64,000 bases of DNA. Source: an uncultured Aquimarina sp. Its GTDB lineage: Bacteria; Bacteroidota; Bacteroidia; Flavobacteriales; Flavobacteriaceae. Below the pieces are notes generated by a model. That model ran no database searches and had not been told where the DNA came from. It worked only from the letters and a program-made list of their open reading frames with translations. The translations under genes were made by a program, and so were the position numbers. Where the stretch lies: positions 372,001 through 436,000 of the forward strand of contig CANMFM010000006.1 in assembly GCA_947497175.1 (NCBI GenBank). The letters run 5' to 3'. Shown here in pieces: positions 4,290 through 59,554 of the stretch (position 1 is its first letter; each line of letters starts with the position of its first letter).

Positions 4290-5339
4290 TTGGAAGAAAA
4301 CTTAAATACTGAAGGTTTTGAAAATAACGAAGATGAGCTCTACGAACATTATCGTTTTGTAGCGGGTGCAGGACAAGTTCCTTTACGAGTAGATAAGTTT
4401 TTGATGAACTTTGTAGAGAACGCTACGCGAAATAAAATTCAACAAGCGGCTAAATCCGGTAGTGTTTTTGTAAATGATATAGCAGTAAAATCAAATCATA
4501 AGGTAAAACCCAATGATGTGGTGCGCGTATTGTTTTCGCATCCACCCTACGAAAATCTTCTGACTCCAGAAAACATCCCTTTAGATATCGTATACGAAGA
4601 TGATGTGTTATTAGTAGTAAATAAGCCGGCTGGTATGGTTGTTCATCCCGGTCATGGTAACTATTCAGGCACGTTAATCAATGCTTTGATTTATCATTTT
4701 GATCATCTACCCAACAATAGTAGTAATCGACCTGGATTAGTGCATCGTATAGATAAAGATACTAGTGGTTTGCTGGTTATTGCTAAAACCGAAGAAGCAA
4801 TGACACATCTTGCAAAGCAGTTTTTTGACAAAACCAGTGAGCGAGAATATGTGGCTATTGTTTGGGGAAATCTTGATGAAGATGAAGGTACTATTGAAGG
4901 TAATATAGGTAGACATCCTAAAAACAGATTACAGAATACAGTTTTTGAAGGAGATGAAGCCGAAAAAGGAAAACCAGCGGTTACTCATTATAAAGTGATT
5001 GAACGGTTGGGGTATGTAACTTTAGTTTCGTGCCGACTCGAGACTGGAAGAACGCACCAGATTCGCGTGCATATGAAATATATTGGTCATACTTTATTTA
5101 ATGATGAACGCTATGGAGGTGAAAAAATATTAAAGGGTACCACCTTTACGAAATACAAACAATTCGTCGAAAATTGTTTTAAAATTTTACCAAGACAGGC
5201 ATTACATGCCAGGACCTTAGGTTTTGAACACCCAACTACAGGTGAGAAAATGCATTTTGAGACCCCGATTCCAGAGGATATGCAATTATGTATTGAACGT
5301 TGGAAAAAGTATGCAAAGAATCAGTTGAAAGACGAATAG
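4290..5339 (+). CDS. rluD: 23S rRNA pseudouridine synthase, RluD type
   Basis: 349 residues with an apparent TTG start; the next in-frame ATG is at codon 39, inside the S4 RNA-binding domain, so TTG is preferred. S4 domain about 30-90 (VPLRVDKFLMNF, GSVFVNDI), then the RluA-family catalytic domain with VNKPAGMVVHPG and HRIDKDTSGLLVIAK; catalytic Asp155 lies in HRID. GRTHQIRVHMKYIGH is also present. The enzyme isomerises uridines in helix 69 of 23S rRNA. It has an acidic N-terminal extension. Nine bases after the PASTA gene. Confidence 0.93.
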   Translation: MEENLNTEGFENNEDELYEHYRFVAGAGQVPLRVDKFLMNFVENATRNKIQQAAKSGSVFVNDIAVKSNHKVKPNDVVRVLFSHPPYENLLTPENIPLDIVYEDDVLLVVNKPAGMVVHPGHGNYSGTLINALIYHFDHLPNNSSNRPGLVHRIDKDTSGLLVIAKTEEAMTHLAKQFFDKTSEREYVAIVWGNLDEDEGTIEGNIGRHPKNRLQNTVFEGDEAEKGKPAVTHYKVIERLGYVTLVSCRLETGRTHQIRVHMKYIGHTLFNDERYGGEKILKGTTFTKYKQFVENCFKILPRQALHARTLGFEHPTTGEKMHFETPIPEDMQLCIERWKKYAKNQLKDE

Positions 5340-34950: not shown

Positions 34951-35010
34951 TTTTTATTTTTTATACCCAGAGTTTATATAGTTTTGTTAATATTGTTTAA
35001 CTAATAAGTG

Positions 35011-35027
35011 AAATTGTTAAACAATTT
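35011..35027. promoter_or_regulatory. Putative operator upstream of folE
   Basis: AAATTGTTAAACAATTT is a perfect 17-base palindrome (8+1+8) just before the -7 element. Related half-sites lie upstream: TTGTTAA at 34984-34990 and TGTTTAAC ending at 35001. The same core TTGTTAAACAA occurs at 43098-43108 before the photolyase operon. Confidence 0.7.
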
Positions 35028-35029
35028 TG

Positions 35030-35037
35030 TAGATTTG
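35030..35037 (+). promoter_or_regulatory. -7 element of folE
   Basis: TAGATTTG matches TAnnTTTG exactly, 24 bases before the ATG. No TTG at the expected -33 place; the palindrome occupies the spacer, which suggests activator- or repressor-dependent use. Confidence 0.6.
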
Positions 35038-35060
35038 GATAATAAGAAATATTAAGAACT

Positions 35061-35765
35061 ATGGAATTTGAAAATGGAACTCAAATAAAAATTAATGGTC
35101 ATAATTCTAATCCAAAGAGATTTACAGATGATGAGATAGGAGATGATCATTTTTATACTGGTATTGATACACCTTTAAAACCAAATGCTTTTGAAATATC
35201 AGATGAGGATAAAAAGATTAGAATCGCTGAGTTGTTTGCAGAGATTATGGATGTTATGGGGCTAGATTTATCAGATGATTCTTTGAGGGGAACGCCAAAC
35301 CGTGTGGCTAAAATGTATATAGACGAAATTTTTTCTGGATTACACCCCAAAAATAAACCTAAAGTAGCATTGTTTGATAATAAGTATCGCTATCAGCAAA
35401 TGTTAGTAGAAAAAAATATTACTTTTTATTCTAATTGCGAGCATCATTTCGTTCCTATTGTAGGTAAAGCTCATGTGGCATATATTTCTTCTGGAAAAGT
35501 AATTGGTTTATCAAAACTGAATAGAATAGTGCAATATTTTGCCAAACGACCACAAGTTCAGGAGCGGTTGACAAATCAGATTGCTATAGAATTGAAACAA
35601 ATACTGAACACCGAAGATGTTGCTGTTATTATTGATGCCAAGCATTTGTGTGTGTCCTCTAGAGGAATAAAAGATGATACTTCTGCAACAGTAACTTCAT
35701 ATTATGGTGGTGTTTTTAATACTCCAGATAAAATTACTGAGTTACAAAATTATATAAAGGATTAA
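35061..35765 (+). CDS. folE: GTP cyclohydrolase I
   Basis: 234 residues, zinc-type (FolE1). SNCEHHFVPIVGKAHVAYI supplies the Cys and His ligands; VIGLSKLNRIVQYFAKRPQVQERL and KHLCVSSRGIKD complete the site with the second Cys. It converts GTP to dihydroneopterin triphosphate, the entry to folate and other pterins, including the antenna cofactor of photolyases. There are about 60 residues before the core. It shares an upstream palindrome with the photolyase operon 8 kb away. Confidence 0.97.
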   Translation: MEFENGTQIKINGHNSNPKRFTDDEIGDDHFYTGIDTPLKPNAFEISDEDKKIRIAELFAEIMDVMGLDLSDDSLRGTPNRVAKMYIDEIFSGLHPKNKPKVALFDNKYRYQQMLVEKNITFYSNCEHHFVPIVGKAHVAYISSGKVIGLSKLNRIVQYFAKRPQVQERLTNQIAIELKQILNTEDVAVIIDAKHLCVSSRGIKDDTSATVTSYYGGVFNTPDKITELQNYIKD

Positions 35766-35786
35766 TTAATTTTAAAGTGTACAACT

Positions 35787-35957
35787 ATGTTTGGGTTATT
35801 CAAGAAAAAGACAGAAGAAGAAGTACTTCAGAAGAAATATGAAAAATTGATGGGACAATGGCATCAATTGTCTAGCATTAATCGAGCAGAAAGTGATAAA
35901 AAATATGCTGAAGCCGAAGAAATTCTAAAGCAGATCGAATCTCTCAAACAAAATTAA
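35787..35957 (+). CDS. Small Lacal_2735-type protein
   Basis: 56 residues: MFGLFKKKTEEEVLQKKYEK, then a helical stretch and EAEEILKQIESLKQN, highly charged and predicted coiled coil. This resembles the Lacal_2735 family found in Flavobacteriia. It starts 22 bases after folE. A paralogue is at 52962-53144 on the other strand. Function unknown. Confidence 0.85.
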   Translation: MFGLFKKKTEEEVLQKKYEKLMGQWHQLSSINRAESDKKYAEAEEILKQIESLKQN

Positions 35958-35977
35958 TCTTAAAAATTTTAAACCCT

Positions 35978-36775
35978 GTGTCTGTGAATATCAAATATCT
36001 ACTAGGGGCTATTGTTACGATTCCGCTACTACCATTGATGTATATTCAGGGAAAACAGATTAGAAAAAAAATTCCATCTCTGCCTGAAGCAGAAGGACGT
36101 GAAGGGGTAAGTAGTATAAGTTCAAAAAAGAGACTTAGCTTGATTACCATAGGCGAGAGTACCATGGCAGGTGTAGGAGTTGATACCCATAAAGAAGGAT
36201 TTACAGGTATGCTGGCTGAAGATTTATCTACTAAATTGAATATTCAAATATGCTGGAAAGTCTATGCTAAGAGTGGATATACGGCAAAAGATGTACTACA
36301 AAAAATCATACCTAAAATAGATGAAAATAAAGTAGATATTCTTATTGTTGGCCTCGGGGGGAATGATGCATTTAGATTAAATACTCCAAAAAAATGGAAA
36401 AGTCATATTCTTAACATAATCAATGCATTGAAAAACAAATTCGAAAATGCAATCATCGTTTTTATCAACATGCCTCCGATAAAAGAGTTTACGGCGTTTA
36501 CCCCCTTGATGAAATTTACTCTAGGTAATTTGGTAACCTTGTTTGGAGAAGAACTCGAAAAGGTTATTGATGATCATAAAGAAGTTTATTTTCATTCTCA
36601 ATGTATCACCTTAGAAGATTGGATAAATAAAATGGACAGTAATGCTAAGCCTTCAGATTTTTTTAGTGACGGTGTTCATCCATCAAAATTGACCTACCAA
36701 ACATGGGCAAAAGATATTTCAGACTTTATATCAAATGATCAAAATATAGTAAAGAATCTAAAGCTAAGGGTATAA
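35978..36775 (+). CDS. SGNH/GDSL hydrolase with N-terminal membrane segment
   Basis: 265 residues with a GTG start (MSVNIKYLLGAIVTIPLLPLMYI). One N-terminal hydrophobic segment. SGNH blocks: TIGESTMAGVGVDTHKEG (Ser nucleophile), GLGGNDAFRLN (block III), and SDGVHPSKLTYQ (Asp/His). An esterase or lipase-like enzyme; substrate unknown. Twenty bases after the Lacal_2735-type gene and five before the next membrane protein, so probably one transcript. Confidence 0.85.
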   Translation: MSVNIKYLLGAIVTIPLLPLMYIQGKQIRKKIPSLPEAEGREGVSSISSKKRLSLITIGESTMAGVGVDTHKEGFTGMLAEDLSTKLNIQICWKVYAKSGYTAKDVLQKIIPKIDENKVDILIVGLGGNDAFRLNTPKKWKSHILNIINALKNKFENAIIVFINMPPIKEFTAFTPLMKFTLGNLVTLFGEELEKVIDDHKEVYFHSQCITLEDWINKMDSNAKPSDFFSDGVHPSKLTYQTWAKDISDFISNDQNIVKNLKLRV

Positions 36776-36779
36776 AAAA

Positions 36780-37202
36780 ATGAATATAGACATAATTCGA
36801 CTACTTTTTGATTTTGGTTTGTTTGTATTAATTTGGTTAGTTCAGCTTGTAATTTATCCAAGTTTTTGTGAGTTCGCAAAAGAAGATTTAGAGAGATGGC
36901 ATAAAAAATATACCCGAAGAATGACGATAATAGTACTTCCATTAATGCTAGGACAACTGAGTTTGGCTATAATTCAAGTAATAAATGATCACTCATGGTA
37001 CATCGTATTCGGTTTGATTATGATTTGCTTGGCTTGGGTATCCACTTTTTTTCAGTTTATACCGACTCATAATAAAATTTCATTTGGCAATGCAAATAAA
37101 ACTGTGCTGAATATGATGATCCGTAAAAATTGGTTACGTACTATATTATGGACTGTTATTTTTCTTCTCAGTTTTTATAAATGCTTATTTTATTTCGTAT
37201 AG
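36780..37202 (+). CDS. Four-helix membrane protein, unknown
   Basis: 140 residues, four predicted membrane helices, short polar loops (YPSFCEFAKEDLERWHKKYTRRM between helices 1 and 2, FIPTHNKISFGN between 3 and 4). The placing of W-H-K-K-Y-T-R-R and PTHN looks like a conserved cytoplasmic face, but I do not recognise a named family with certainty. Follows the SGNH gene by four bases. Confidence 0.7.
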   Translation: MNIDIIRLLFDFGLFVLIWLVQLVIYPSFCEFAKEDLERWHKKYTRRMTIIVLPLMLGQLSLAIIQVINDHSWYIVFGLIMICLAWVSTFFQFIPTHNKISFGNANKTVLNMMIRKNWLRTILWTVIFLLSFYKCLFYFV

Positions 37203-37244
37203 AGCACAGAATAAGATGACAAAACGATTAACTTTAAATTAAAA

Positions 37245-38270
37245 ATGAAAGTACCACTGCTCGTATTTAACGAAAACGGAATTTACTGTGAAGCAGCAGA
37301 TGTTTATCTGGATCCATGGCGACCAGTGGATAAAGCAATTATTACCCATGGTCATGCCGATCATACTCGTTGGGGGCATAAAAAGTACATTACTCATATA
37401 ACTAATGTTCCTATTATTAAACATAGGTTAGGCGATATCAATGTAAGTGGAAAAACATTTGGAGAGACTTTTATAATTAATAACGTAAAATTCTCTCTGC
37501 ATCCCGCAGGTCATATTTTAGGAAGTTCACAAGTTAGGGTTGAGCATAATGGAGAAGTCTGGGTGTTTACTGGAGATTATAAGATTGAAGATGATGGTAT
37601 TTCTGTTCCTTTTGAGCCTGTTAGATGTCACACGTTTATAACAGAATGCACCTTCGGTTTACCGGCGTTTAAATGGATTCCGCAAGAGGAAGTATTTTTG
37701 GATATAAATTCATGGTGGGCCTCTAATAAAGGCGAGGGAAAAACCTCGGTGCTTTTTGGGTACTCTTTAGGAAAAGCACAACGGCTATTAAAATATTTAG
37801 ATACATCTATTGGTTCCATATATACTCATGGTGCCATCGAAAACATGACCAATGTTCTTCGTCCTTTGGTTAAGTTTCCTAAAACTACATTAATTACAAG
37901 AGAAACTTCAAAAGAAGATATAAAAGGAAACATTGTGCTTGCACCTCCCAGTGCACATGGAAGCACATGGATCCGAAAGATGGTTCCCTATGAAACAGCT
38001 TCGGCCAGTGGTTGGATGGCTTTTAGAGGAGCTAGACGACGACGCGCTATAGATAAAGGTTTTGTACTTTCTGATCATTGCGACTGGCAAGGTTTGTTAA
38101 AAGCAGTAGAAGCCACTGGTGCACGTAAAATCATTAGTACGCATGGGTATACAGATATTTTTTCGCGATACCTAAGAGAGTTGGGGTATGATGCACGAAC
38201 CGAACAAACACAATATGAAGGAGAGCTATCAGAAATGGAAACCAAGAAAGAAAGTGAGGATGCTTCATGA
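37245..38270 (+). CDS. Ligase-associated DNA exonuclease (MBL fold)
   Basis: 341 residues. Metallo-beta-lactamase/beta-CASP-like: ITHGHADHTRWG (HxHxDH metal motif), HPAGHILGSSQV, FTGDYKIEDDG, TECTFGLP, and C-terminal SDHCDWQGLL and STHGYT. The family is named for its constant linkage to ATP-dependent ligase. The stop overlaps the ligase start by four bases (ATGA). First gene of the four-gene repair operon; it probably processes DNA ends before sealing. Confidence 0.95.
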   Translation: MKVPLLVFNENGIYCEAADVYLDPWRPVDKAIITHGHADHTRWGHKKYITHITNVPIIKHRLGDINVSGKTFGETFIINNVKFSLHPAGHILGSSQVRVEHNGEVWVFTGDYKIEDDGISVPFEPVRCHTFITECTFGLPAFKWIPQEEVFLDINSWWASNKGEGKTSVLFGYSLGKAQRLLKYLDTSIGSIYTHGAIENMTNVLRPLVKFPKTTLITRETSKEDIKGNIVLAPPSAHGSTWIRKMVPYETASASGWMAFRGARRRRAIDKGFVLSDHCDWQGLLKAVEATGARKIISTHGYTDIFSRYLRELGYDARTEQTQYEGELSEMETKKESEDAS

Positions 38271-39910
38271 AACATTTTGCCGAACTAATTAAAAAACTGG
38301 ACAGTACCAACAAAACAAATGTTAAGGTAAATGCTTTAGCCTCATATTTTGAAAGTGCTTCTGATCCTGATAAAGTTTGGACCATAGCCATTCTTTCTCA
38401 TCGTCGACCTCCACGGCCGGTCAATACAACTTTATTGCGCACTTGGGCTTCAGAATTAGCAAATATTCCACTATGGTTATTTGAAGAATCGTATCACATT
38501 GTTGGTGATCTGGCAGAAACCATCGCATTGGTGGTCCCCGCTTCAAAACAGAGTACAGAAAAAACACTAACGCAGTTTTTGACAGAAATGCTTCTTTTAA
38601 AGAAAAAAGATGAAATCGATAAAAAAGAATATGTACTAGAAAATTGGAAAGCACTCAATTATTACGAACGATTTGTGTTTACCAAATTGATAACAGGTGG
38701 ATTTAGAATAGGGGTAAGTCAAAAGTTAATGACAAGAGCATTGGCCAAAGCAACACAGATTGATGAAGATATTTTGGCGTATAAGTTGATGGGAAATTGG
38801 GACCCGAATACAATTTCATTCCAGGATTTAATTATCGAAGAGAACCCCGCAGATTTTTTGTCCAAACCTTACCCTTTCTATCTTGCTTATGCCATAGAAG
38901 ATAAGGTTTCTGATCTGGGAAAAGCCGAAGAGTGGAGTGTAGAGCATAAGTGGGATGGGATACGTTCACAAGTAATTATTAGAGATCGAGAACTTTTCGT
39001 TTGGAGTAGAGGCGAAGAATTGGTAACCGATAAATACCCAGAGTTTTACCAATTAGTTGGCCAAATTCCTGATGGAACCGTAATTGATGGTGAAATACTG
39101 CCGTTTCCTGATGGAAAAATAGGGACATTTAACGATCTACAAACGCGTATAGGTAGGAAGACCGTTTCCAAAGCGTTGTTAGCAAAAACTCCGGTAATCT
39201 TAAAAGCCTATGATTTGTTAGAATGGGAAGGAAATGATATACGTAATGAACCTTTTTATAAACGAAGAGAACTACTGGAAGCTTTGTATAAAAACTATCA
39301 TTCAGATAGAAAACTTGAAACAGATACCGACAAACCCGATTTGAGGTGGGATACCTTGCAACTATCAGAAAAAATGTACTTTGATTCTTGGGAAGACGTA
39401 GAAGAAGAAAGAAATCAAGCTCGCAAAAAACAGAGTGAGGGCCTCATGCTGAAACGAAAGGATTCTATTTATCAAGTTGGAAGAAAAAAAGGAGATTGGT
39501 GGAAATGGAAAGTTGATCCTTTAACCATAGACGCAGTGCTTACTTATGCGATGAGAGGTCATGGGCGTAGATCTAATCTATTTACAGATTATACCTTTGC
39601 ATTGTGGGATACACAAAAAGAAGAATTGGTCACTTTTGCTAAAGCGTACTCTGGTTTAACCGATGCAGAATTTAGACAAGTTGATTCTTGGATTAAGAAA
39701 AACACGATAGACCGATTTGGTCCGGTTCGTAGTGTTACACCTAAGCTTGTTTTTGAAATAGCCTTCGAAGGAATTGCACTATCCAAAAGACATAAAAGTG
39801 GTATCGCTACACGTTTTCCTCGTATTTTGAGATGGAGACAAGATAAAAAAATACAGGAAGCTAATACCTTAGATGATTTAAAAGCTATGATTCCTTCAAC
39901 AGACAAATAA
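38267..39910 (+). CDS. ATP-dependent DNA ligase
   Basis: 547 residues. Nucleotidyltransferase motif I EHKWDGIRS with the AMP-accepting Lys228; SRGEELVTDKYPEF (motif Ia/III region), DGEILPF, YDLLEWEGND, EGLMLKRKDSIYQ and WWKWKVDPLTIDAVL (motifs IV-V). N-terminal DNA-binding domain about 1-200, C-terminal OB domain. Most bacteria rely on NAD-dependent LigA, so this is an accessory repair ligase. Abuts the helicase gene with no gap. Confidence 0.96.
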   Translation: MKHFAELIKKLDSTNKTNVKVNALASYFESASDPDKVWTIAILSHRRPPRPVNTTLLRTWASELANIPLWLFEESYHIVGDLAETIALVVPASKQSTEKTLTQFLTEMLLLKKKDEIDKKEYVLENWKALNYYERFVFTKLITGGFRIGVSQKLMTRALAKATQIDEDILAYKLMGNWDPNTISFQDLIIEENPADFLSKPYPFYLAYAIEDKVSDLGKAEEWSVEHKWDGIRSQVIIRDRELFVWSRGEELVTDKYPEFYQLVGQIPDGTVIDGEILPFPDGKIGTFNDLQTRIGRKTVSKALLAKTPVILKAYDLLEWEGNDIRNEPFYKRRELLEALYKNYHSDRKLETDTDKPDLRWDTLQLSEKMYFDSWEDVEEERNQARKKQSEGLMLKRKDSIYQVGRKKGDWWKWKVDPLTIDAVLTYAMRGHGRRSNLFTDYTFALWDTQKEELVTFAKAYSGLTDAEFRQVDSWIKKNTIDRFGPVRSVTPKLVFEIAFEGIALSKRHKSGIATRFPRILRWRQDKKIQEANTLDDLKAMIPSTDK

Positions 39911-42370
39911 ATGAATAGAAATGAGCTTCAACAAATAGCGGTTGATTGGTTTGAGCAGCAAGAATGGACTCCATTTGCCTTTCAAAAACAGGCATGGGTA
40001 GCTTTTTTGAAAGGTAAAAATGGATTGTTGAATGCTCCTACTGGTAGTGGAAAAACATACGCACTTTGGGTTGCCATAGTTCTGGAGTATATTAAGAAAA
40101 ATCCCCAATATAGCTCAACACATAAAAAAGGTTTAAAAGCAATCTGGATTACTCCGCTTAAAGCCCTTTCAGTAGAGATTAAACAAGCAGCAGAGCGATT
40201 TGTAGAGGGGGTTGGTGTGCCTCTAACCGTAGGGATACGTACAGGTGATACTGATCAAAAAGAGCGTGCTGCACAGAAAAGAAAGATGCCAGATTTGTTG
40301 ATAACAACGCCAGAAAGTTTACATCTTCTGTTAGCTTCAAAAGGCTACGACCAAACCTTCAAAGATGTTTCTGCTATAGTAGTCGACGAGTGGCACGAAC
40401 TTTTAGGAAGTAAAAGAGGAGTGCAAATAGAGTTGGCCTTATCCCGATTAAAAACGATTTCATCTCAACTTCGAATTTGGGGTATTTCGGCAACAATAGG
40501 AAATCTTGATCAGGCCCGAGAAGTGCTTCTTGGTACAGGTTCTGAAGCACTGAATAATTCATTGCTAATCAAAGCAAACATTAATAAAAAAATAAAGGTA
40601 AAGTCAATCATCCCTAAAAAAATGGAAACTTTTCCATGGCGTGGGCATTTGGGCCTACATTTGTTAGATGAGGTTATTCCAATTATAAATCAAAGCAAAA
40701 CAACATTACTTTTTACCAATACAAGAGCACAATGTGAAATCTGGTTTCAAAAAATTTTAGAAAAATATCCAGAATTTGCAGGAGAAATTGCCATGCACCA
40801 CGGTAGTATTAATAAAGAAACCAGAGTCTGGGTAGAACATGCGATAAGAAACGAAGAACTCAAAGCGGTAGTATGTACTTCAAGTCTTGATTTAGGAGTT
40901 GATTTTGCCCCTGTAGAAACGATCATTCAGATTGGAGGCCCAAAAGGAGTAGCTCGTTTTTTGCAACGTGCTGGTCGTAGTGGGCATCAGCCGGGAAAAG
41001 AGAGTGTGATTTATTTTTTGCCAACTCATGCTATAGAGCTTATTGAGGCTTCTGCTTTGCAGAAAGCAGTAAAAAATAAGATCGTAGAAGATAGAGTGCC
41101 CTATTTGAATAGTTTTGATGTATTAGTACAATATTTAACTACGTTAGCGGTTTCAAATGGATTTTTCCCTGAAGAGATTTTTCCTGAAATTAAAAGTACG
41201 TTTTGTTTTCAATCAATTACCAGAGAACAGTATCAATGGATGTTAAATTTTATAACCATCGGAGCGCAAAGCTTACAATCCTATGATGAGTATAAAAAAG
41301 TAGAAATACAGGCTGATGGAAAGTTTAAGGTAAACAGTAGAGGAGTTGCCATGAGACATCGATTGCAAATTGGAACCATAGTAAGCGATGCTGTTTTGAC
41401 TGTAAAGTATATGAAGGGTGGGTATTTGGGTTCGATAGAAGAATGGTTCATATCGAAACTAAAACCAGGTGATGTATTTACTTTTGCTGGCCGCAATCTT
41501 GAGTTGTTTAAGGTTAAGAATATGCAAGTACTTGTTAGGAAATCTAATCAAAAGACTTCAAAAGTACCCAGCTGGATGGGCGGGCGTATGAGTTTTTCTT
41601 CAGAAATGAGTGAATTGCTTAGAGAAGAAATGTATCTGGCGAATGCTGTGTCAGGAAAATCAAGAGAGCTAAAAGCGCTAACTCATATTTTTAATAAACA
41701 AAAACAAGAAAGCATAGTTCCCGGTCCAAATGAATTTTTAATTGAAACTTTTAAAACCAGAGAAGGATACCATGCTGTTTTTTATCCATTCGAGGGGCGA
41801 TTTGTACATGAAGCTCTAGGTAGCTTATTGGCATACCGAATTAGTTTACTTTTTCCCATTACGTTTTCAATTGCTTTTAATGATTATGGATTTGAGTTAT
41901 TATCTGATCAGGAGATTGACATGCAACAGGTGTTGGATAATGATTTGTTCACTACAGAATTCTTAAGTAGTGATTTACGAAAGAGCTTAAATGCTACAGA
42001 AATGGCCAGGAGAAAATTTAGAGATGTGGCCGTAATTTCTGGATTGGTATTTACAGGATATCCCGATAAATTATTGAAAAGCAAACATCTTCAATCCAGT
42101 TCTCAATTGATATTTAATGTTTTTAAAGAGTATGAGCCTGATAATTTATTGTTTCAACAATCTTATACAGAAACGTTCGAACATCAATTAGAAGAAGGAA
42201 GATTGCAATTAGCGATGCAACGGATTACTGAACAGAACATTATCTGGAAACAATGCAAAAAACCAACTCCATTTTCGTTCCCAATCATTACAGACCGATT
42301 GCGCGAAAAGCTTTCTTCAGAAAAATTAGCAGATCGGATTAGAAAAATGACAATGCAATTAGAAAAATAG
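39911..42370 (+). CDS. Ligase-associated DEXH-box helicase (Lhr-like)
   Basis: 819 residues. Superfamily 2: NAPTGSGKTYALW (Walker A), ITPLKALSVEI, TTPESLHLLL, VVDEWHEL (DEWH in place of DEAH), GISATIG, TSSLDLGVDFAPVE and QRAGRSGHQPG (motif VI). The Lhr-type C-terminal region follows. Probably a 3'-5' translocase that opens damaged or branched DNA for its partner nuclease and ligase. Starts one base after the ligase stop. Confidence 0.96.
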   Translation: MNRNELQQIAVDWFEQQEWTPFAFQKQAWVAFLKGKNGLLNAPTGSGKTYALWVAIVLEYIKKNPQYSSTHKKGLKAIWITPLKALSVEIKQAAERFVEGVGVPLTVGIRTGDTDQKERAAQKRKMPDLLITTPESLHLLLASKGYDQTFKDVSAIVVDEWHELLGSKRGVQIELALSRLKTISSQLRIWGISATIGNLDQAREVLLGTGSEALNNSLLIKANINKKIKVKSIIPKKMETFPWRGHLGLHLLDEVIPIINQSKTTLLFTNTRAQCEIWFQKILEKYPEFAGEIAMHHGSINKETRVWVEHAIRNEELKAVVCTSSLDLGVDFAPVETIIQIGGPKGVARFLQRAGRSGHQPGKESVIYFLPTHAIELIEASALQKAVKNKIVEDRVPYLNSFDVLVQYLTTLAVSNGFFPEEIFPEIKSTFCFQSITREQYQWMLNFITIGAQSLQSYDEYKKVEIQADGKFKVNSRGVAMRHRLQIGTIVSDAVLTVKYMKGGYLGSIEEWFISKLKPGDVFTFAGRNLELFKVKNMQVLVRKSNQKTSKVPSWMGGRMSFSSEMSELLREEMYLANAVSGKSRELKALTHIFNKQKQESIVPGPNEFLIETFKTREGYHAVFYPFEGRFVHEALGSLLAYRISLLFPITFSIAFNDYGFELLSDQEIDMQQVLDNDLFTTEFLSSDLRKSLNATEMARRKFRDVAVISGLVFTGYPDKLLKSKHLQSSSQLIFNVFKEYEPDNLLFQQSYTETFEHQLEEGRLQLAMQRITEQNIIWKQCKKPTPFSFPIITDRLREKLSSEKLADRIRKMTMQLEK

Positions 42371-42386
42371 TAGATTTTATCCAGTA

Positions 42387-43025
42387 ATGCGAACAGAAAC
42401 GATAACATATCATCAGCAAACCTTTACGCTACATCACAGTGGCGCATTATATTGGCATGAGATCGAAATGCTTCTAATTGCCGATGTTCATTTTGGTAAA
42501 GTTACTCACTTTAGAAAACATGGAAGCGCTATTCCTCAGCATGCGATACAACGCAATTTTGAAAAATTGGATTTGGTACTTTCTCACTTTCGACCAAAAA
42601 CTCTATGCTTTTTAGGAGATCTGTTTCATAGTTATATCAACTCAGAATGGTTTTTGTTTGAAGAATGGGTAAAAAAAAAATCGTCTAAGATAATCCTGAT
42701 CTCTGGTAATCACGATGTAATTTCTCCATTGAGGTATGAAGAAATAAATGTTCTGGTTGCAAATGAATGGCAAGAAGAATCAGTCTTACTCACTCATATT
42801 CCAGAGAACAGAGCGGGTGTTTTTAATATTTCAGGACATATTCATCCCGGAATTCGATTGCAAGGAGCTGGTAAACAGTCAATATCAGTTCCTTGTTTTT
42901 TCAAAACACAACATCAATTGATTCTACCTGCTTTTGGAGCATTCACAGGAAAACATATTCTTAATCCTGGTAAGGACGATTTGATCTTTGCTATTGCCGA
43001 AGAAGAAGTAATTAGAGTGATTTAG
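42387..43025 (+). CDS. pdeM: Ligase-associated endonuclease PdeM
   Basis: 212 residues. Metallophosphatase motifs in order: DVHFGKVTHFRKHG (I), GDLFHS (II), GNHD (III), LTHIPEN (IV), GHIHPG (V). Usual length for PdeM. It completes the exonuclease-ligase-helicase-PdeM set. No terminator is evident before the photolyase operon, 91 bases on, but a new promoter region lies there. Confidence 0.95.
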   Translation: MRTETITYHQQTFTLHHSGALYWHEIEMLLIADVHFGKVTHFRKHGSAIPQHAIQRNFEKLDLVLSHFRPKTLCFLGDLFHSYINSEWFLFEEWVKKKSSKIILISGNHDVISPLRYEEINVLVANEWQEESVLLTHIPENRAGVFNISGHIHPGIRLQGAGKQSISVPCFFKTQHQLILPAFGAFTGKHILNPGKDDLIFAIAEEEVIRVI

Positions 43026-43092
43026 CCTAAGAATCATTCAGTATAATCTGTTAAACCTTTCTTAGTTACTTCTTTTTTGTTTAATGATTTAA

Positions 43093-43100
43093 TAAATTTG
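43093..43100 (+). promoter_or_regulatory. Putative -7 element of the photolyase operon
   Basis: TAAATTTG matches TAnnTTTG, and would start RNA near 43107, ten bases before the DUF2256 ATG. It overlaps the palindrome at 43094-43111. A TTTG at 43076 is too close for a standard -33, so basal activity may be low. Confidence 0.45.
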
Positions 43101-43111
43101 TTAAACAATTT
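43094..43111. promoter_or_regulatory. Putative operator of the photolyase operon
   Basis: Contains TTGTTAAACAATTT, identical over 14 bases to the palindrome before folE (35011-35027); one arm has a single mismatch. Extra half-sites: TGTTAAAC at 43049-43056 and TTGTTTAAT at 43077-43085. Repeated TGTTtAA units suggest a multimeric regulator such as the MerR/LitR (CarH) class; this is inference. Confidence 0.7.
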
Positions 43112-43116
43112 AGATA

Positions 43117-43260
43117 ATGAAAAAATCTTTACTTCCTAAAAAGACATGCGTTGTATGCCAAAAACCATTTACCTGGAGAAAGAAATGGCAAAAAGTTTGG
43201 GATGAAGTGAAGTATTGTAGCGAGCGTTGTAGAAGAAATAAGAAGAAGTTGTATGAGTAA
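43117..43260 (+). CDS. DUF2256 small zinc-ribbon-like protein
   Basis: 47 residues: [20 protein letters not shown], then [16 protein letters not shown]. Two CxxC-type pairs (CVVC, CSERC) indicate zinc binding. DUF2256 genes are regularly found beside cryptochrome/photolyase genes. Its stop overlaps the next gene by eight bases. Below usual gene-calling size. Function unknown. Confidence 0.92.
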
Positions 43261-44554
43261 AACAGGTTTGGTTTGGTTTAGGAATGATTTACGATGTCAG
43301 GATAATACATCTTTGCATAAAGCAATTGCTGAAAATGATAAAGTAATAGGTATATATTTTTTTGATCCTAGACATTTTGAGACAACCGCCTTCGGATTTA
43401 AAAAAACAGATAAGTATCGAGCCCGTTTTTTGCTGGAATCGGTTACTCAGCTCAAACAAAACCTGGAAGCACTTAATATCTCTTTATTTATTTACCAACA
43501 GTACCCGGAAGATGTAATGCCTCAATTTTTTGAAGGCCGAAACGTATCGAATGTTTATATACAAAAAGAATGGACAACGGAAGAATCCGGTATATCTGAA
43601 GCGGTTAAAAATTCAATCGATAGATATGGTGTAACCTGGCATGAGGATTTTGATCAGTTTTTGTTTCATCCAGATGATATTCCTTTCGATATTCAAAATA
43701 TTCCTCAGGTATTTACCAATTTCAGGAAGAAATGTGAAAAGTATGCCTCAGTAAGGCAGCCAATCAGAATTCAAAAGCTTTCTGAAGAAAACCGCATAGA
43801 GAATACCACAGTGATACCCTTATTGAAGGATTTGGGTTTTGAAAGGTTTGGAGATGATCATAGATCTGCATTCTCTTTTTCTGGCGGAGAAGATGAGGCG
43901 CTAAAGCGCATAACGTCCTATTTCTGGGAAACTAAGAAACTTTCTTTTTACAAAAAAACTCGGAATGGCTTATTGGGTATCGATTATAGTTCAAAGCTTT
44001 CTGCCTGGTTAGCTAACGGAAGCATATCGGCTAGAACCGTGTATCACGAAGTGAAAAAATATGAAGAACAAATTATAAAAAATGATTCTACGTATTGGCT
44101 GATTTTTGAGCTGATTTGGAGAGATTTTTTTAAATATATCTCTATGAAACACGGTAATGATCTTTTTAAAATAGGTGGTATTTTGAATAGGAATTATGAT
44201 TGGAAGGACGATCCAAAATTAGTAAATCAATGGATCCATGGCGAAACCTCAGAACCATTCGTAAATGCCAATATGCTTGAAATTAAATACACAGGCTGGA
44301 TGAGTAATAGAGGCAGGCAAAATGTAGCTTCTTATTTTGCAAAAGAACTACAATTAGATTGGAGAATCGGGGCGAGTTATTTTGAGTCTCTGCTAATAGA
44401 TTATGACGTGCATAGTAACTATGGTAATTGGCAATATGTCGCTGGGGTGGGCAACGATCCAAGAGACCGAAAATTTAATATCAGATTACAGGCAGAACGA
44501 TATGATTCGCAGTATAAATATCAAAATCTCTGGTTACAATCAAAATTATTTTAA
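43253..44554 (+). CDS. DASH-family cryptochrome/photolyase
   Basis: 433 residues. N-terminal antenna domain [21 protein letters not shown], then [22 protein letters not shown]-binding C-terminal domain with [51 protein letters not shown] and [43 protein letters not shown]. The last block, with [24 protein letters not shown], is typical of Cry-DASH. These repair CPDs in single-stranded DNA and may act as light sensors. Second gene of the operon. Confidence 0.95.
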
Positions 44555-44557
44555 ATC

Positions 44558-46090
44558 ATGATTATACGACTTATTCTTGGTGATCAGCTAAATCAACAAC
44601 ACTCGTGGTTCAAAAATACCAATGATAAAGTCTGCTATTTTATGGCAGAAATGAGACAAGAGACTGATTATACCCGTCATCATATTCAAAAAGTAGTTGC
44701 TTTTTTTGAAAGTATGCGCAATTTTAGAGATTGGCTACGCCAAAGAGGTCATCAAGTACTCTATTTTGAACTTGACCATAAAGACAATAAGCAAAATTTG
44801 GTTAAGAATCTTCAAAAGATTTTAAGCGATAAGAAAGCCGAAAAGTTCGAATACCAATTACCCGATGAATACCGACTTGATCAACAACTAAAAGAATTCT
44901 GTGATGATCTTAATGTGGATACAGAAACTTATGATACAGAGCATTTTTTAACCTCACGAAATGACCTGGAGCGATTTTTTGAAGGAAAGAAAACCTATAC
45001 CATGGAATATTTTTATCGACACATGCGCAAACGATACAATGTTATGATGGTAAACGAAAAGGATCCCGAAGGCGGAAAATGGAATTTTGATCAAAGTAAT
45101 CGCAAAAAATGGAATGGTAAAGACGATATTCCACACGAGAGAGGGTTTAGAAAAGATGTATCAGGCAGTCTTACTATGATTAAAGAGCAAGGCATAGAAA
45201 CCTTAGGTTCTATTGACCCTTTTCAATTCAATTGGCCTACTTCCAGAGAGGATTGCTTATCTGTATTGCGTTATTTTTGTAAATATCTTTTAGTGCACTT
45301 TGGAGATTATCAAGATGCCATGCATACAAACGAGAGATATCTGTTTCATAGCCGTATTTCTTTTGCAATGAATAGTAAAATGATACATCCGCAAGAAGTA
45401 ATACAAACTGTTATTGATTACTGGAGAGCACATCAAGATGAGATTGATATTTCTCAGGTTGAAGGTTTTGTAAGACAAATTATTGGTTGGCGAGAGTATA
45501 TGAGAGGAATATACTGGATGAAAATGCCTGACTACCAAAAAACAAACCACCTCAATAACAAAAATAAGCTACCTGATTTTTATTGGACGGCTGATACCAA
45601 AATGAATTGTCTACACCATTCAATCAAACAAAGTTTAGAAGATGCTTACGCTCATCATATACAACGATTAATGATAACGGGCAATTATGCTCTACTTACA
45701 CAAACGCATCCCGATGAGGTAGATCAATGGTATCTTGGTATATACATTGATGCTATCGAATGGGTAGAAATTACAAACACAAGAGGTATGAGTCAGTTTG
45801 CAGATGGAGGTATTGTAGCTACCAAACCTTATGTATCTAGTGGTAGTTATATCAATAAAATGAGTAATTATTGTAAAAGTTGTCATTATAAGGTGTCTAA
45901 AAAGACTGAAGATGATTCATGTCCATTTAATTCTTTGTACTGGAATTTTTTGGATGATAAAAGAGAATATTTCGAAGATAACCAGCGTATGAGTATGATG
46001 TTGAGCATGCTTGATAAAATGGATAAAGGAAAGCTGGAAGCGTTAAAAAAACGGGCACATGCCATTATAAATAACCCTAATGAATATTAA
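44558..46090 (+). CDS. Iron-sulfur bacterial photolyase (6-4 type, PhrB/FeS-BCP)
   Basis: 510 residues. Starts [16 protein letters not shown], the mark of the FeS bacterial cryptochrome/photolyase clade. Cluster cysteines are visible in [31 protein letters not shown] (C-x2-C and a later C), making four. [21 protein letters not shown] and [15 protein letters not shown] form the flavin pocket. Known members repair 6-4 photoproducts and use a lumazine antenna. Three bases after the Cry-DASH gene. Confidence 0.95.
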
Positions 46091-47570
46091 TAAAAAGGAA
46101 CATATCAATATTGTCTGGTTTAAGCGAGACTTACGATTACAAGATAATGAAGCCATTTATAACGCAATAGCATCTGGTAAACGTACTTTATTGTTATACG
46201 TTTTTGAAGATTCATTAAAGCAAGATCGACATTATAGCGAGCGACATTGGAATTTTATAAAGCAATCCTTATCTGATATGAACAAGAGTCTCATTGCTCA
46301 TAACACCAAAGTTCTTTGCGTTTCATCAGAAGTGATAAAAACTTTCGCGACATTACAACAGTTTTGGAAAATCGATACTGTTTTTTCTCATCAGGAAACG
46401 GGTATTAAGAAAACATACGATAGAGATAAAACCTTTAAAGCTTTTTGTAAAAATAATCTGATCACATGGATAGAAAATGGGAACAACGGGATTTTGAGGG
46501 GTTTAAAAAACAGAAACACGTGGCGAGAAGATTGTGAGCGTTACATGGCTACTCCCCTTCTTAAATTTGAACCCGGCGATAACAGTTTTGTTTCTCTAGA
46601 AATGATTTCAGAAGTGGAACGTGTTTTTGAAATTGAAAGTCTGAAAACTCCAGAGAACTCAAATTTTCAAAGAGGAGGGACTTCAACGGCTATCAAGTAT
46701 TTAAAGTCTTTTTTTTATGAGGGGCGATACAAAAACTATAGCTTTCATATTTCAAAACCAGAATTATCCCGGAAAGGCTGTAGCCGTCTATCACCTTATA
46801 TTGCTTGGGGTAATCTCTCTATAAGACAAATATGGCAGTATGCTGTAGAATTTAGGCAATTGTCGAGTAATAAAAAGCAAATTGATGCATTTATATCCAG
46901 GCTGCACTGGCAAGTTCACTTTATTCAAAAATTTGAAATGGAAGATGTTATGGAGTTTGAAAGCATTAATAAAGGATATCACAAACTCAAAAAAAATATT
47001 TCGGAGACCTATCAGGTTGCCTGGCAAGAAGGGAAAACAGGGTATCCATTAGTAGATGCCTGCATGCGTTGTCTTAAAGAAACAGGATATCTTAATTTTA
47101 GAATGCGAGCCATGGTGGTTTCTTTTTTTACACATAATTTATGGCAACCTTGGCAAGAAGCTAGTGCGTATTTATCCAGCCTGTTTTTAGATTTTGAACC
47201 TGGAATACATTTTCCGCAACTACAAATGCAGGCTGGCGAAACAGGAATTAACATCTTAAGAATTTATAATCCTATTAAAAATAGTGTCTCTCATGACCCT
47301 GAAGGTGTTTTTATTAGAAAATGGGTCCCAGAATTGCGTAATGTTCCTGTTGAATTTATTCATGAACCTTATAGGATGACTATATTAGATCAAAAGTTCA
47401 ATAATATTACTTTAGGAGAAGATTATCCCTTTCCGATAGTAAACATTGATACCAGTCGTAAAAGAGCAAGTGATACGCTCTGGCAAATCAAAGATGATCT
47501 TTTGGTTAAAAAAGAGAGTCAGCGTATTTTAAAAAAACATACATTACCGAATCGAAAAAAACTAAAGTAA
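46080..47570 (+). CDS. Cryptochrome/photolyase family protein, third copy
   Basis: 496 residues; start overlaps the previous gene by 11 bases. Antenna domain [22 protein letters not shown], then [19 protein letters not shown] domain: [89 protein letters not shown] and [26 protein letters not shown] differs from Cry-DASH, so this is another subfamily (class I/CPD-like or the plant-like branch). Substrate unproven. Confidence 0.93.
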
Positions 47571-47571
47571 A

Positions 47572-47850
47572 ATGCAAAAAGACTTATCTACAAGAGATAT
47601 TGATAGAATTATAGAAATGGCCTGGGAAGACAGAACTCCTTTTGATGCGATTTTGATACAATTTGCTTTAAAAGAACAAGATGTTATTGATCTTATGCGA
47701 CGAGAGATGAAAGCGTCAAGTTTTAAAATGTGGAGAAAACGGGTACAAGGAAGAAAAACAAAACATCTTAAGAAGAGAACTTTTGAGGATGGAAGATTTA
47801 AATGCTCACGACAACGACAAATCACCCATAACAAAATATCAAAACGTTAA
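47572..47850 (+). CDS. TIGR03643 family protein
   Basis: 92 residues: LSTRDIDRIIEMAWEDRTPFDAILIQFALKEQDVIDLMRREMKASSFKMWRKRVQGRKTKHLKK, the signature of TIGR03643 (DUF2805). Strongly basic at the C-terminus. The helical first half (DIDRIIEMAWEDRTPFDAI...EQDVIDLMRREM) looks like a helix-turn-helix, so DNA binding is possible. It begins one base after the photolyase stop. Families of this type recur beside photolyases in Bacteroidota; role unknown. Confidence 0.9.
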   Translation: MQKDLSTRDIDRIIEMAWEDRTPFDAILIQFALKEQDVIDLMRREMKASSFKMWRKRVQGRKTKHLKKRTFEDGRFKCSRQRQITHNKISKR

Positions 47851-47853
47851 ATA

Positions 47854-48252
47854 ATGCAAAAGAAAAAACCTGATAATGTTGTTTATGATGAGCAGCAAGA
47901 ACGCTATGATGCTGCCTTAAAGCCTTATGCAACAGATATGGGAGCACCTGTGATTACTACAGATGATACAGTGGCCTGGAAAAATGCAAATATTCATAAA
48001 GTAAATAAACAGGTTAAAGCAAAATATGATGAACTCAAAGCAGAATATGATGCTTTAATGGAGCGATTTGAATATAATAATTTGATTTATAGTGCCAAGT
48101 TTAATTTTGAACCTGTAGTAGGTGAGTTGTATCATTTATATAAAAATAAAAAAGAAGTATCATTTCTATCTATTATAGCTCCTGCAGAATGTAATTTTGA
48201 ACATTTGGGGAGTTTTCGATTAAATGCAGATAAGATGTGGGAGAGCATCTAG
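47854..48252 (+). CDS. DUF2452 protein
   Basis: 132 residues: KPDNVVYDEQQERYDAALKPYATDMGAPVITTDDTVAWKNANIHKVNKQ, then NLIYSAKFNFEPVVGELYHLY and FLSIIAPAECNFEHLGSFRLNADKMW. Matches the DUF2452 pattern. Three bases after the TIGR03643 gene; last of the six-gene photolyase operon. Function unknown. Confidence 0.88.
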   Translation: MQKKKPDNVVYDEQQERYDAALKPYATDMGAPVITTDDTVAWKNANIHKVNKQVKAKYDELKAEYDALMERFEYNNLIYSAKFNFEPVVGELYHLYKNKKEVSFLSIIAPAECNFEHLGSFRLNADKMWESI

Positions 48253-55845: not shown

Positions 55846-56125
55846 TAAAAGGGTGTTTTCTAATTATAAACATACTATTAATGAAATGATTTTTCCAATA
55901 ATTCTTTGTAAAGATAGGGTGCGTTCAGGCGTTTTTAATTGATTAGAAATGGATGTGTTGTTTTGCTACATAATTTTCAAAAAAGCCAGTATAAACGCTA
56001 CAAAATTTGAACTATATACAATGAAGAGTTTAACTAGGTTAAATAAATTATATAATTCTAAAAAAATAATCCTTTTTGGTGCATATTTCGTAAATTAGCA
56101 ACGTTAAAATCACTATTTATTGTCA

Positions 56126-59100
56126 ATGGAACAAATTGCACCGTATACCCCCAAGAATAAAGTAAGAATAGTAACTGCAGCCTCATTATTTGATGGTCAT
56201 GATGCAGCGATTAATATTATGCGTCGAATTATACAATCTACAGGAGTAGAGGTGATCCATCTTGGTCATGATCGAAGTGTAGAAGAGGTAGTAAACTGCG
56301 CAATACAAGAAGACGCTAATGCTATCGCTATGACCTCTTATCAGGGAGGACATAATGAATATTTCAAATATATGTATGATTTGCTAAAGGAAAAAGGGGC
56401 AGAACATATTAAGATATTTGGCGGCGGCGGCGGCGTAATCCTGCCCGAAGAGATTAAGGATCTAATGGATTATGGGATTACACGTATTTATTCTCCAGAT
56501 GATGGTAGAGAACTTGGGCTTCAGGGTATGATTAATGATTTAGTAGAAAAGTCTGATTTTCCGATTGGGGATGGGCTTAACGGTGAAGCAGATCATTTAG
56601 CGAAAAAGGAAATAGGTGCCATAGCAAGAGTAATTTCGGCCGCAGAAAATTTTCCTGAAATAGCTAAAGATACTTTAGATAAAATTCATGATAAAAACAA
56701 AACTTCCAGAACGCCGGTTTTAGGAATTACAGGAACCGGAGGAGCAGGTAAATCGTCTTTGGTAGATGAATTAGTACGTAGATTTTTAATCGATTTTCCA
56801 GAAAAAACACTCGGAATTATTTCTGTAGATCCATCCAAACGTAAAACGGGTGGGGCATTACTAGGAGATAGAATTAGAATGAATGCAATAAATTCTCCAA
56901 GAGTCTATATGCGATCATTAGCGACCAGACAATCCAATCTGGCATTGTCAAAATACGTTGCAGAAGCCATTGAAGTGCTAAAAGCAGCAGAGTTTGATCT
57001 TATTATTCTTGAGACTTCAGGTATCGGGCAATCAGACACCGAAATACTAGAACATAGTGATACTTCATTATATGTAATGACCCCAGAGTTTGGTGCCGCA
57101 ACACAATTAGAAAAGATCGACATGCTCGATTTTGCAGATTTGGTAGCCATCAACAAATTTGATAAACGAGGTTCTCTGGATGCTCTACGTGATGTGAAAA
57201 AACAATACATGCGAAACCATAATTTGTGGGATACACATCAAGATGACCTGCCGGTATATGGTACTATTGCTTCTCAATTTAATGATCCCGGAATGAATAC
57301 GCTGTATAAAGCGATTATGGATAAAGTTGTAGAGAAAACAGGGGCAGACCTTCAATCAGATTTTCATATTTCTAAAGAAATGTCTGAAAAAATATTTGTG
57401 ATTCCGCCGAGTAGAACTCGCTATTTATCTGAAATTGCCGAAAATAACAGAGCATACGACAAAACGGCGATCACTCAGGTAGAGGTGGCTCAAAAATTAT
57501 ATGGAATTTATAAAACCATTTGTAGCGTTACTGATACGAGTTCTTTACGTCTGTCTAAAAATGGTATTGATGAAGAAATCCTTCAAAACGCTAAGAACGA
57601 TGATAATTCAGAGTTTTTAAAGTTACTTTTAGCAGAGTTTGATCGGGTTAAGCTTAATCTGGATCCTTATAATTGGGAAATTATTACGGGTTGGGCTGGC
57701 AAAGTTAAAAAGTATAAAGATCCGGTGTATTCTTTCAAAGTAAGAGAGAAAGAAATTAAAATCGAAACTCATACAGAATCCCTTTCTCACACGCAAATTC
57801 CGAAGGTCGCTTTGCCAAAATATGAGGCATGGGGCGATATTCTAAAATGGTGTTTACAAGAAAATGTTCCTGGCGAGTTTCCATATGCTTCAGGATTATA
57901 TCCTTTTAAACGTACCGGAGAAGACCCCACGCGAATGTTTGCCGGAGAAGGTGGGCCAGAGAGAACCAATCGACGTTTTCACTATGTTAGTTTAGGAATG
58001 CCTGCCAAACGACTTTCTACAGCCTTTGATTCGGTAACACTTTATGGTAATGATCCTGATCATCGACCAGATATTTATGGTAAAATTGGTAATGCAGGAG
58101 TATCGATCTGCTGTCTTGATGATGCTAAAAAACTATATTCTGGGTTTGATCTTTCGCATGCCATGACGTCGGTAAGTATGACCATAAATGGTCCTGCACC
58201 TATGCTTCTCGGATTCTTTATGAATGCCGCCATAGATCAAAATTGTGAAAAATATATCAAAGAAAATGGTCTGGAAGCAGCGGTTGATGCTAAAATTAAA
58301 AAAATGTATAAAGGGGTCGAACGCCCAAAATATCAAGGAGAATTACCAGAAGGAAATGATGGACTTGGTTTAATGCTACTTGGAGTTACGGGAGATCAGG
58401 TGCTGCCTGCCGATGTCTATGCAAAAATTAAAACGGAAACTTTAAATACCGTTAGAGGTACCGTACAAGCAGATATTCTTAAAGAAGACCAGGCACAGAA
58501 TACATGTATTTTTTCAACAGAGTTTGCTTTGCGATTGATGGGAGATGTGCAAGAGTATTTTATAGAAAAACAGGTGCGTAATTTTTACTCGGTTTCAATT
58601 TCTGGATATCATATAGCCGAAGCCGGAGCGAACCCAATCACTCAATTGGCATTAACCTTGGCAAATGGATTTACATATGTTGAGTATTACCTTAGTCGTG
58701 GAATGGATATCAACAAATTTGGTCCAAACCTATCGTTCTTTTTCTCTAATGGTATTGATCCAGAATATGCAGTAATTGGTCGGGTAGCTCGTAAAATATG
58801 GGCAAAAGCCTTGAAGCATAAATACGGAGCAAACCCCAGAGCACAAATGCTAAAATATCATATTCAAACTTCTGGTCGTTCATTACATGCTCAGGAGATA
58901 GACTTCAATGATATACGAACTACTTTACAGGCCCTATATGCTATCTATGATAATTGCAATTCTTTGCATACGAATGCCTATGATGAAGCAATTACTACGC
59001 CTACAGAAGAGTCGGTGCGCAGGGCCATGGCCATTCAGTTAATTATTAATAAAGAACTAGGTTTAGCTAAGAATGAAAACCCAATTCAAGGATCTTTTAT

Positions 59101-59554
59101 AATCGAAGAATTAACAGACCTTGTTGAAGAAGCGGTATTAACCGAGTTTGATCGAATCACAGAACGTGGAGGGGTATTGGGAGCTATGGAAACTATGTAC
59201 CAACGTAGTAAAATACAAGAAGAAAGCTTGTATTATGAAACTTTAAAACATACCGGTGAGTTTCCAATTATTGGCGTAAATACATTTTTAAGTTCAAAAG
59301 GATCGCCAACGGTTACTCCAGGCGAAGTAATTCGGGCTACCGAAGAAGAAAAGCAATACCAAATTACAACGTTAAACAATCTTCATAAAGCAAAAGAAGA
59401 TGTGGCCTCAGAAATTTTAACCAAAGTACAGGAAGCGGCTATCAATAATAAGAATATTTTTGAAGTATTAATGGAAGCTACCAAAGTCTGTTCTTTAGGA
59501 CAGATTACCGCAGCGTTATTTGAAGTAGGAGGACAATATCGCAGAAATATGTAG
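56126..59554 (+). CDS. icmF: Isobutyryl-CoA mutase fused (IcmF)
   Basis: 1142 residues from ATG 56126. Order: B12 domain ([19 protein letters not shown], DxH-type ligand, 10-150), MeaB-like GTPase ([18 protein letters not shown] Walker [25 protein letters not shown]), then the large mutase barrel ([47 protein letters not shown]). The position occupied by the CoA-binding Arg207 in methylmalonyl-CoA mutase (MVRNTY type) reads QAQNTC, the Gln seen in IcmF. It interconverts isobutyryl- and n-butyryl-CoA with adenosylcobalamin. Confidence 0.95.

Follow-up and report, generated by a model that had tools for sequence, protein, structure and literature searches.

CarH, the class I LitR protein of Thermus, Bacillus and Myxococcus, is an adenosylcobalamin-dependent photoreceptor that acts as a repressor of carotenoid genes. 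PMC9304148 describes a W-x9-EH motif that contacts the adenosyl group and an ExHxxG motif that gives the lower ligand, and the known CarH operators are presented there, and in PMC8156234, as tandem 11-bp direct repeats. The class II LitR proteins keep only the four-helix part, are thought not to bind B12 and have a LOV protein as partner; in Pseudomonas such proteins (PplR, PmlR) control light-inducible phrB, cryB and folE (PMC9758184). These Pseudomonas regulators have folE and photolyase-type targets in common with the locus described here, although they belong to a different phylum. Something similar is said of Halomonas, also of another phylum, where Romine et al. (2017) reportedly proposed that a B12-binding LitR controls folate and photolyase genes. 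In some marine flavobacteria light raises proteorhodopsin expression by an unknown route, and a search of titles and abstract openings of open-licence papers found no link of CarH or LitR to proteorhodopsin. We propose here that two sites in the window (the whole stretch of 64,000 nucleotides that was analysed), one before folE and one before a photolyase operon, are likely to be operators of a light regulon that spans the family and is run by a CarH/LitR-like adenosylcobalamin repressor.

The initial annotation had noticed that AAATTGTTAAACAATTT (35011-35027) and AAATTTGTTAAACAATTT (43094-43111) share 14 bases. Both are present at these positions, and so are half-sites further upstream (TGTTTAA at 34994 and 43078, TGTTAAT at 34985, TGTTAAA at 43049). 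The 11-bp palindrome common to them did not stand out in the genome-wide search that had been suggested as a check: the genome (4.59 Mb in 21 contigs) contains 12 exact copies, and also 12 of a control pattern, and some of the palindrome sites fall inside genes. Within the window 11 matches with at most one mismatch compare with 5.9 expected, a number that 4 of 100 shuffles reach. Since its copies equal those of the control, the palindrome alone is uninformative and was rejected as a genome-wide marker. Such background counts would fit a reading in which the 14 shared bases are a chance match between AT-rich promoters. When the promoters of relatives were placed side by side, however, a longer element became recognisable. 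It is a 30-bp inverted repeat, TGTTTAA-N16-TTAAACA, located at 34994-35023 before folE and at 43078-43107 before the photolyase operon. The palindromes (35014-35024 and 43098-43108) overlie the right arms of these repeats. The two operons thus do share an operator-like element, but its size had been misjudged, the palindrome being only the right-arm part.

The arms of the repeat are inverted, their starts are 23 bp apart and each contains a TnnACA core. In the window the two 7-bp arms are paired twice at a gap of exactly 16 and never at other gaps from 4 to 40. An exact search that allowed W once per arm found 9 copies in the genome versus 0 for the control, which was the same pattern read backwards; in ten relatives, selected as rich in sites or as carrying a rhodopsin or folE cluster, the counts were 64 versus 1. 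Repeats with one mismatch are noise in the source genome itself (28 versus 37 for the control). With these copy numbers, a near-specificity for one gap and functionally coherent genes at the copies, we regard a chance match as refuted for the 30-bp repeat, and as extremely improbable for the shared 14 bases.

All features of the window described here lie on the forward strand. The arms of the folE operator occupy 34994-35000 and 35017-35023, and the extra half-site TGTTAAT (34985-34991) stands 9 bp before the left arm; in relatives, a GTTAA some 9-10 bp upstream of the left arm occurs in 10 of 16 promoters of the orf142-DUF2805-folE operon and in 4 of 16 TetR-ABC1 promoters. Downstream of the site follows a probable -7 box, TAGATTTG (35030-35037), which corresponds to the consensus TAnnTTTG as quoted in PMC3587595. 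The folE gene itself (35061-35765) encodes a GTP cyclohydrolase I of a photolyase-linked paralog group (NF006824, 279 bits, cut-off 202). In the photolyase operon the operator arms lie at 43078-43084 and 43101-43107, an extra half-site TGTTAAA (43049-43055) stands 29 bp before the left arm, and the probable -7 box TAAATTTG (43093-43100) takes up the last 8 spacer bases and abuts the right arm. The placement of the two sites relative to the -7 box therefore differs, as had been remarked. The first gene of this operon encodes a DUF2256 protein (43117-43260; PF10013, 79.5 bits, cut-off 25) and overlaps the start of the next, a DASH-family cryptochrome (43253-44554; TIGR02765, 512.8 bits, cut-off 317). 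A deoxyribodipyrimidine photolyase-related protein (DPRP; 44558-46090; PF04244, 257.5 bits) and a photolyase/cryptochrome family protein (46080-47570; PF03441 and PF00875) come next. DUF2805 (47572-47850; PF10985), a family that in relatives is encoded between orf142 and folE of the photolyase cluster, is followed by DUF2452 (47854-48252; PF10504, 37.4 bits, cut-off 25), possibly the last gene of the operon, whose homologs come after folE in loci L092, L093 and L371. Upstream, a run of genes in the same direction (37245-43025) leads into the photolyase operon; from reading the sequence we take these to be MBL-exonuclease-, ATP-dependent ligase-, Lhr-helicase- and phosphoesterase-like.

Regulation of folE and the photolyase operon by a common element is well supported, but the set is not limited to these two, and the regulon appears much wider. 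Two tandem copies of the repeat lie between the divergent genes for blh (PF15461, beta-carotene dioxygenase) and rhodopsin (PF01036). Single copies are found before a 6-pyruvoyl-tetrahydropterin synthase gene (PTPS, PF01242) with a glutathione-peroxidase-like gene, before a fasciclin-domain protein (PF02469), between a DUF427 protein (PF04248) and a 74-aa gene that precedes an orf142 homolog, next to a small gene and DUF2237 (PF09996), and between a TetR gene (PF17931) with its ABC1-kinase gene and an htpG-like gene. On contig C8 a MerR gene carries the palindrome at its own start, and crtI, crtB and a crtZ-like gene then follow. The names glutathione peroxidase, htpG, ABC1 and crt are presumed from reading the sequence in this genome; the ABC1 gene of one relative was identified by a profile scan (PF03109).

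In relatives, at a gap of 16 and with at most one mismatch, the repeat is present before the TetR-ABC1 operon in 16/18, before the orf142-DUF2805-folE operon in 16/20, in rhodopsin promoters in 16/29 and before crtI, in the region after carH, in 11/29. The first two sets stem from 20 cluster regions chosen for a folE near DUF2256, the rhodopsin set comprises all 29 relatives found, and the carH/crtI set the 29 best-scoring relatives. Other gaps from 10 to 23 gave at most 2 occurrences each in the four sets, first-order shuffles averaged at most 0.03, and equal stretches inside folE and carH, used as gene-internal controls, had the repeat in 0/29 and 0/29. Thirteen of the 29 rhodopsin promoters have no repeat at one mismatch; some of their genomes have carH (for example G043 and G092), and three are carH-less (G004, G081 and G095, with 3-4 mismatches). 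A fasciclin-like gene adjoins the repeat in 11 of 40 regions around exact copies in the ten relatives (L348, L350, L353, L356, L360, L361, L367, L369, L370, L381 and L385). Other genes next to the repeat in these 40 regions are those for PTPS, TetR, htpG, DUF2805, cryptochrome, folE, glutathione peroxidase, SDR-DUF2867, a GHMP kinase (mevalonate-kinase-like) and CIA30. Some exact copies lie near seemingly unrelated genes or within a reading frame (L376, L383), and hence not every copy need work.

We also scanned the family with the pattern TTTGTTTAAC-N14-GTTAAACA at up to one mismatch, using 149 genomes, one per genus and the source genome included. The repeat was present in 100 of them, with 188 forward and 178 reverse matches in sum and 9 and 5 for the controls; this pattern undercounts, since genome G056 scores 0 there and 3 in the exact search of the ten relatives. 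That folE and the photolyase operon are regulated together, the central claim of the initial annotation, is strongly supported by this common and conserved element.

The window folE belongs to a paralog group with 76-83% identity and at least 41 relatives, which is separate from the matches at about 56-66%. This genome has four FolE matches at E <= 0.001, one of them among the matches listed. Among the matches listed for the relatives, the paralog folE lies within 15 kb of a DUF2256 or TetR marker in 34 of 41, and the repeat is found within 1.5 kb upstream of it in 24 of 29 (L076, L077, L092, L099 and L101 are without). The paralog folE of the relatives is therefore mostly a member of the photolyase cluster. 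At closer range, up to about 260 bp from folE, the repeat occurs in only 2 of 29, because the gene is mostly third in its operon in relatives. In the genome studied here folE is 8 kb away from the photolyase operon, yet it has the same operator. A PTPS gene directly precedes folE in L076, L092, L093 and L095 of the 29 and also in L371, and TetR-ABC1 and PTPS-folE flank the repeat in L095. Since DASH cryptochromes have a folate antenna, a supply of pterin for photolyases or cryptochromes is plausible; the proposed regulon suggests this as a role for a second folE and a PTPS gene.

A light-sensing regulator of the CarH/LitR type had been suggested on general grounds, and this idea is now well supported by a gene located elsewhere in the genome before crtI and by the co-occurrence of operator and gene throughout the family. 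A profile search of this genome found two MerR_1 genes. The CarH/LitR-like one lies outside the window at C8:263.6 kb, where it heads the carotenoid genes. Its product has an N-terminal MerR helix-turn-helix (PF13411, 54.9 bits, cut-off 21.6) and a four-helix B12-binding subdomain (B12-binding_2 domain). A search with PF02310 gave three matches in the genome and none in the MerR gene, so that this profile was rejected as a marker of the regulator; PF02607 matches the MerR gene. By sequence the closest solved relatives are LitR/CarH of Thermus thermophilus, and the best named matches are Aquimarina proteins with 82-88% identity. W-x9-EH is intact in 29/29 homologs and also in 14/14, and ExHxxG (D/ExHx2G with the His ligand) is present in 29/29. 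The rest of the B12 motif (x41-SxT/V-x22-27-GG) is degenerate: the S is found in 28/29 at a spacing of 40, the third residue is F in 22/29, and the first sequence has a single G271 and no GG. The homologs have Trp then Gln, not His. We name the protein CarH/LitR-like because its score with the NCBIfam CarH equivalog NF052513, 68.7 bits, is below the cut-off of 400. A predicted model of one Aquimarina homolog (pLDDT 83.8, pTM 0.71) has CarH structures as best fold matches; it includes a C-terminal alpha/beta domain, which aligns with CarH as far as residue 298, and the His ligand. These two features do not fit class II LitR, which has the four-helix part only. The window itself encodes IcmF, a fused isobutyryl-CoA mutase (56120-59554; NF045497, 1750.9 bits, cut-off 1500), and a methylmalonyl-CoA mutase is encoded elsewhere in the genome; both are enzymes that use adenosylcobalamin, so this compound, the proposed light-sensor cofactor, is probably in the cell.

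The regulator here thus resembles CarH in its MerR domain, its four-helix and B12-type domain and the two cofactor motifs, in a gene next to crt genes, and in an operator that lies over the promoter with a TnnACA core in each arm. In contrast to CarH, the operator is an inverted repeat with a 16-bp gap and not a set of tandem 11-bp direct repeats, the SxT/V and GG elements are degenerate, there is a start-codon operator, and the regulon includes rhodopsin and blh, photolyases, folE and PTPS.

Across the 149 genera the repeat goes with a close carH, defined as a match above 200 bits: of 111 genomes that have the gene 95 also have the repeat, versus 5 of the 38 others (Fisher 6e-16; this and the following p-values are guides only, because the genomes are related by descent). 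In the remaining 16 carH genomes this undercounting pattern did not detect the repeat. Of the five genomes with the repeat and without a close carH, completeness is 81% for G079 and 73% for G147, while G025, G066 and G098 each encode a distant relative of 36-37% identity. The repeat could alternatively be the operator of the TetR protein (TetR_C_23), which would run the photoprotection genes and perhaps sense a membrane or redox product, not light. Proteins of the TetR family bind inverted repeats and often control their own genes, and the repeat is placed directly before TetR-ABC1 in this genome and in 16/18 clusters. Furthermore, carH-less genomes show a weak trend, with the repeat in 3/8 that have TetR versus 2/30 that do not (p 0.05). 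Among carH genomes, however, TetR has no added effect (74/86 with TetR versus 21/25 without, p 0.75), whereas in TetR-less genomes carH matters strongly (21/25 with carH versus 2/30 without, p 4e-9), and carH bears a site in its own start that is kept at the DNA level. We therefore do not favour TetR as the main regulator and consider this explanation quite unlikely.

The site at carH has the form TGTTTAA-N16-nTGAACA and occurs in 65 of 80 named loci, with the TG of the right arm being that of the start codon. In L248-L327 it lies roughly 5 to 29 bp upstream of the carH match (in L248 at 4972-5001). Because the right arm takes this degenerate start-codon form, only 6/69 carH promoters are found at gap 16 with up to one mismatch. 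Among 75 loci with the start codon in place, codon 2 of carH reads AAC 71 times and AAT once, whereas the other Asn codons of the same genes are AAC in 559 and AAT in 1080 cases, so that AAT makes up about two thirds (Fisher 5e-31). Codon 2 is hence held at AAC against the preference for AAT, which argues that the right arm is kept as a DNA sequence. The source genome has the same form in a degenerate copy, with GTGAACA as right arm. The best reading of this arrangement is that carH regulates itself and that its coding start supplies the right arm. A regulator that is neither the MerR nor the TetR protein might also bind the repeat, with carH merely one of its targets, and this would yield the same co-occurrence of repeat and carH. 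But the repeat is nearly absent without carH, including in the rhodopsin promoters of G004, G081 and G095, although other targets remain, and autoregulation is the simpler reading; we judge another regulator to be unlikely.

The CarH/LitR-like repressor is therefore the reading that we follow, and we infer protein binding to the repeat, repression, and B12 and light as the signal. The MerR-type protein encoded at C8:263.6 kb most likely holds adenosylcobalamin. In the dark it would sit on TGTTTAA-N16-TTAAACA, over the -7 box or just upstream of it, and block RNA polymerase; by analogy with CarH, light would break the cofactor bond and the repressor would leave. Carotenoids, retinal and rhodopsin, photolyases and the pterin branch (the window folE and PTPS) would then be induced together. 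As judged from the promoter sequences, all placements of the operator relative to the -7 box would fit a repressor. At carH the -7 box overlaps the left arm (TAnnTTTGTTTAA in 66/80); at crtI of relatives, as in the window photolyase operon, the box (TAnnTTTG) fills the last 8 spacer bases and abuts the right arm; and in the folE, TetR and orf142 operons it comes a few bases after the right arm. For the Flavobacteriaceae as a whole we find it reasonably probable that one B12-type photoreceptor repressor controls a whole sunlight programme, a dedicated FolE-PTPS pterin branch included, through a new inverted-repeat operator, and its own gene through the start-codon operator.

As far as our literature searches go, what is new is the geometry of the operator, its reach across the family, rhodopsin/blh and PTPS as targets, and an operator that includes the start codon. 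If the proposal is true, the light induction of proteorhodopsin would be accounted for by a B12-type sensor that acts on the rhodopsin, retinal, carotenoid and repair genes, and the use of light would be tied to the supply of vitamin B12. The operator is short and exact, and the regulon can thus be read from other genomes of the family. Tandem copies between blh and rhodopsin lie at L211:7712-7776 with starts 35 bp apart, and further pairs are found before rhodopsin in L224 and before a fasciclin gene in L367.
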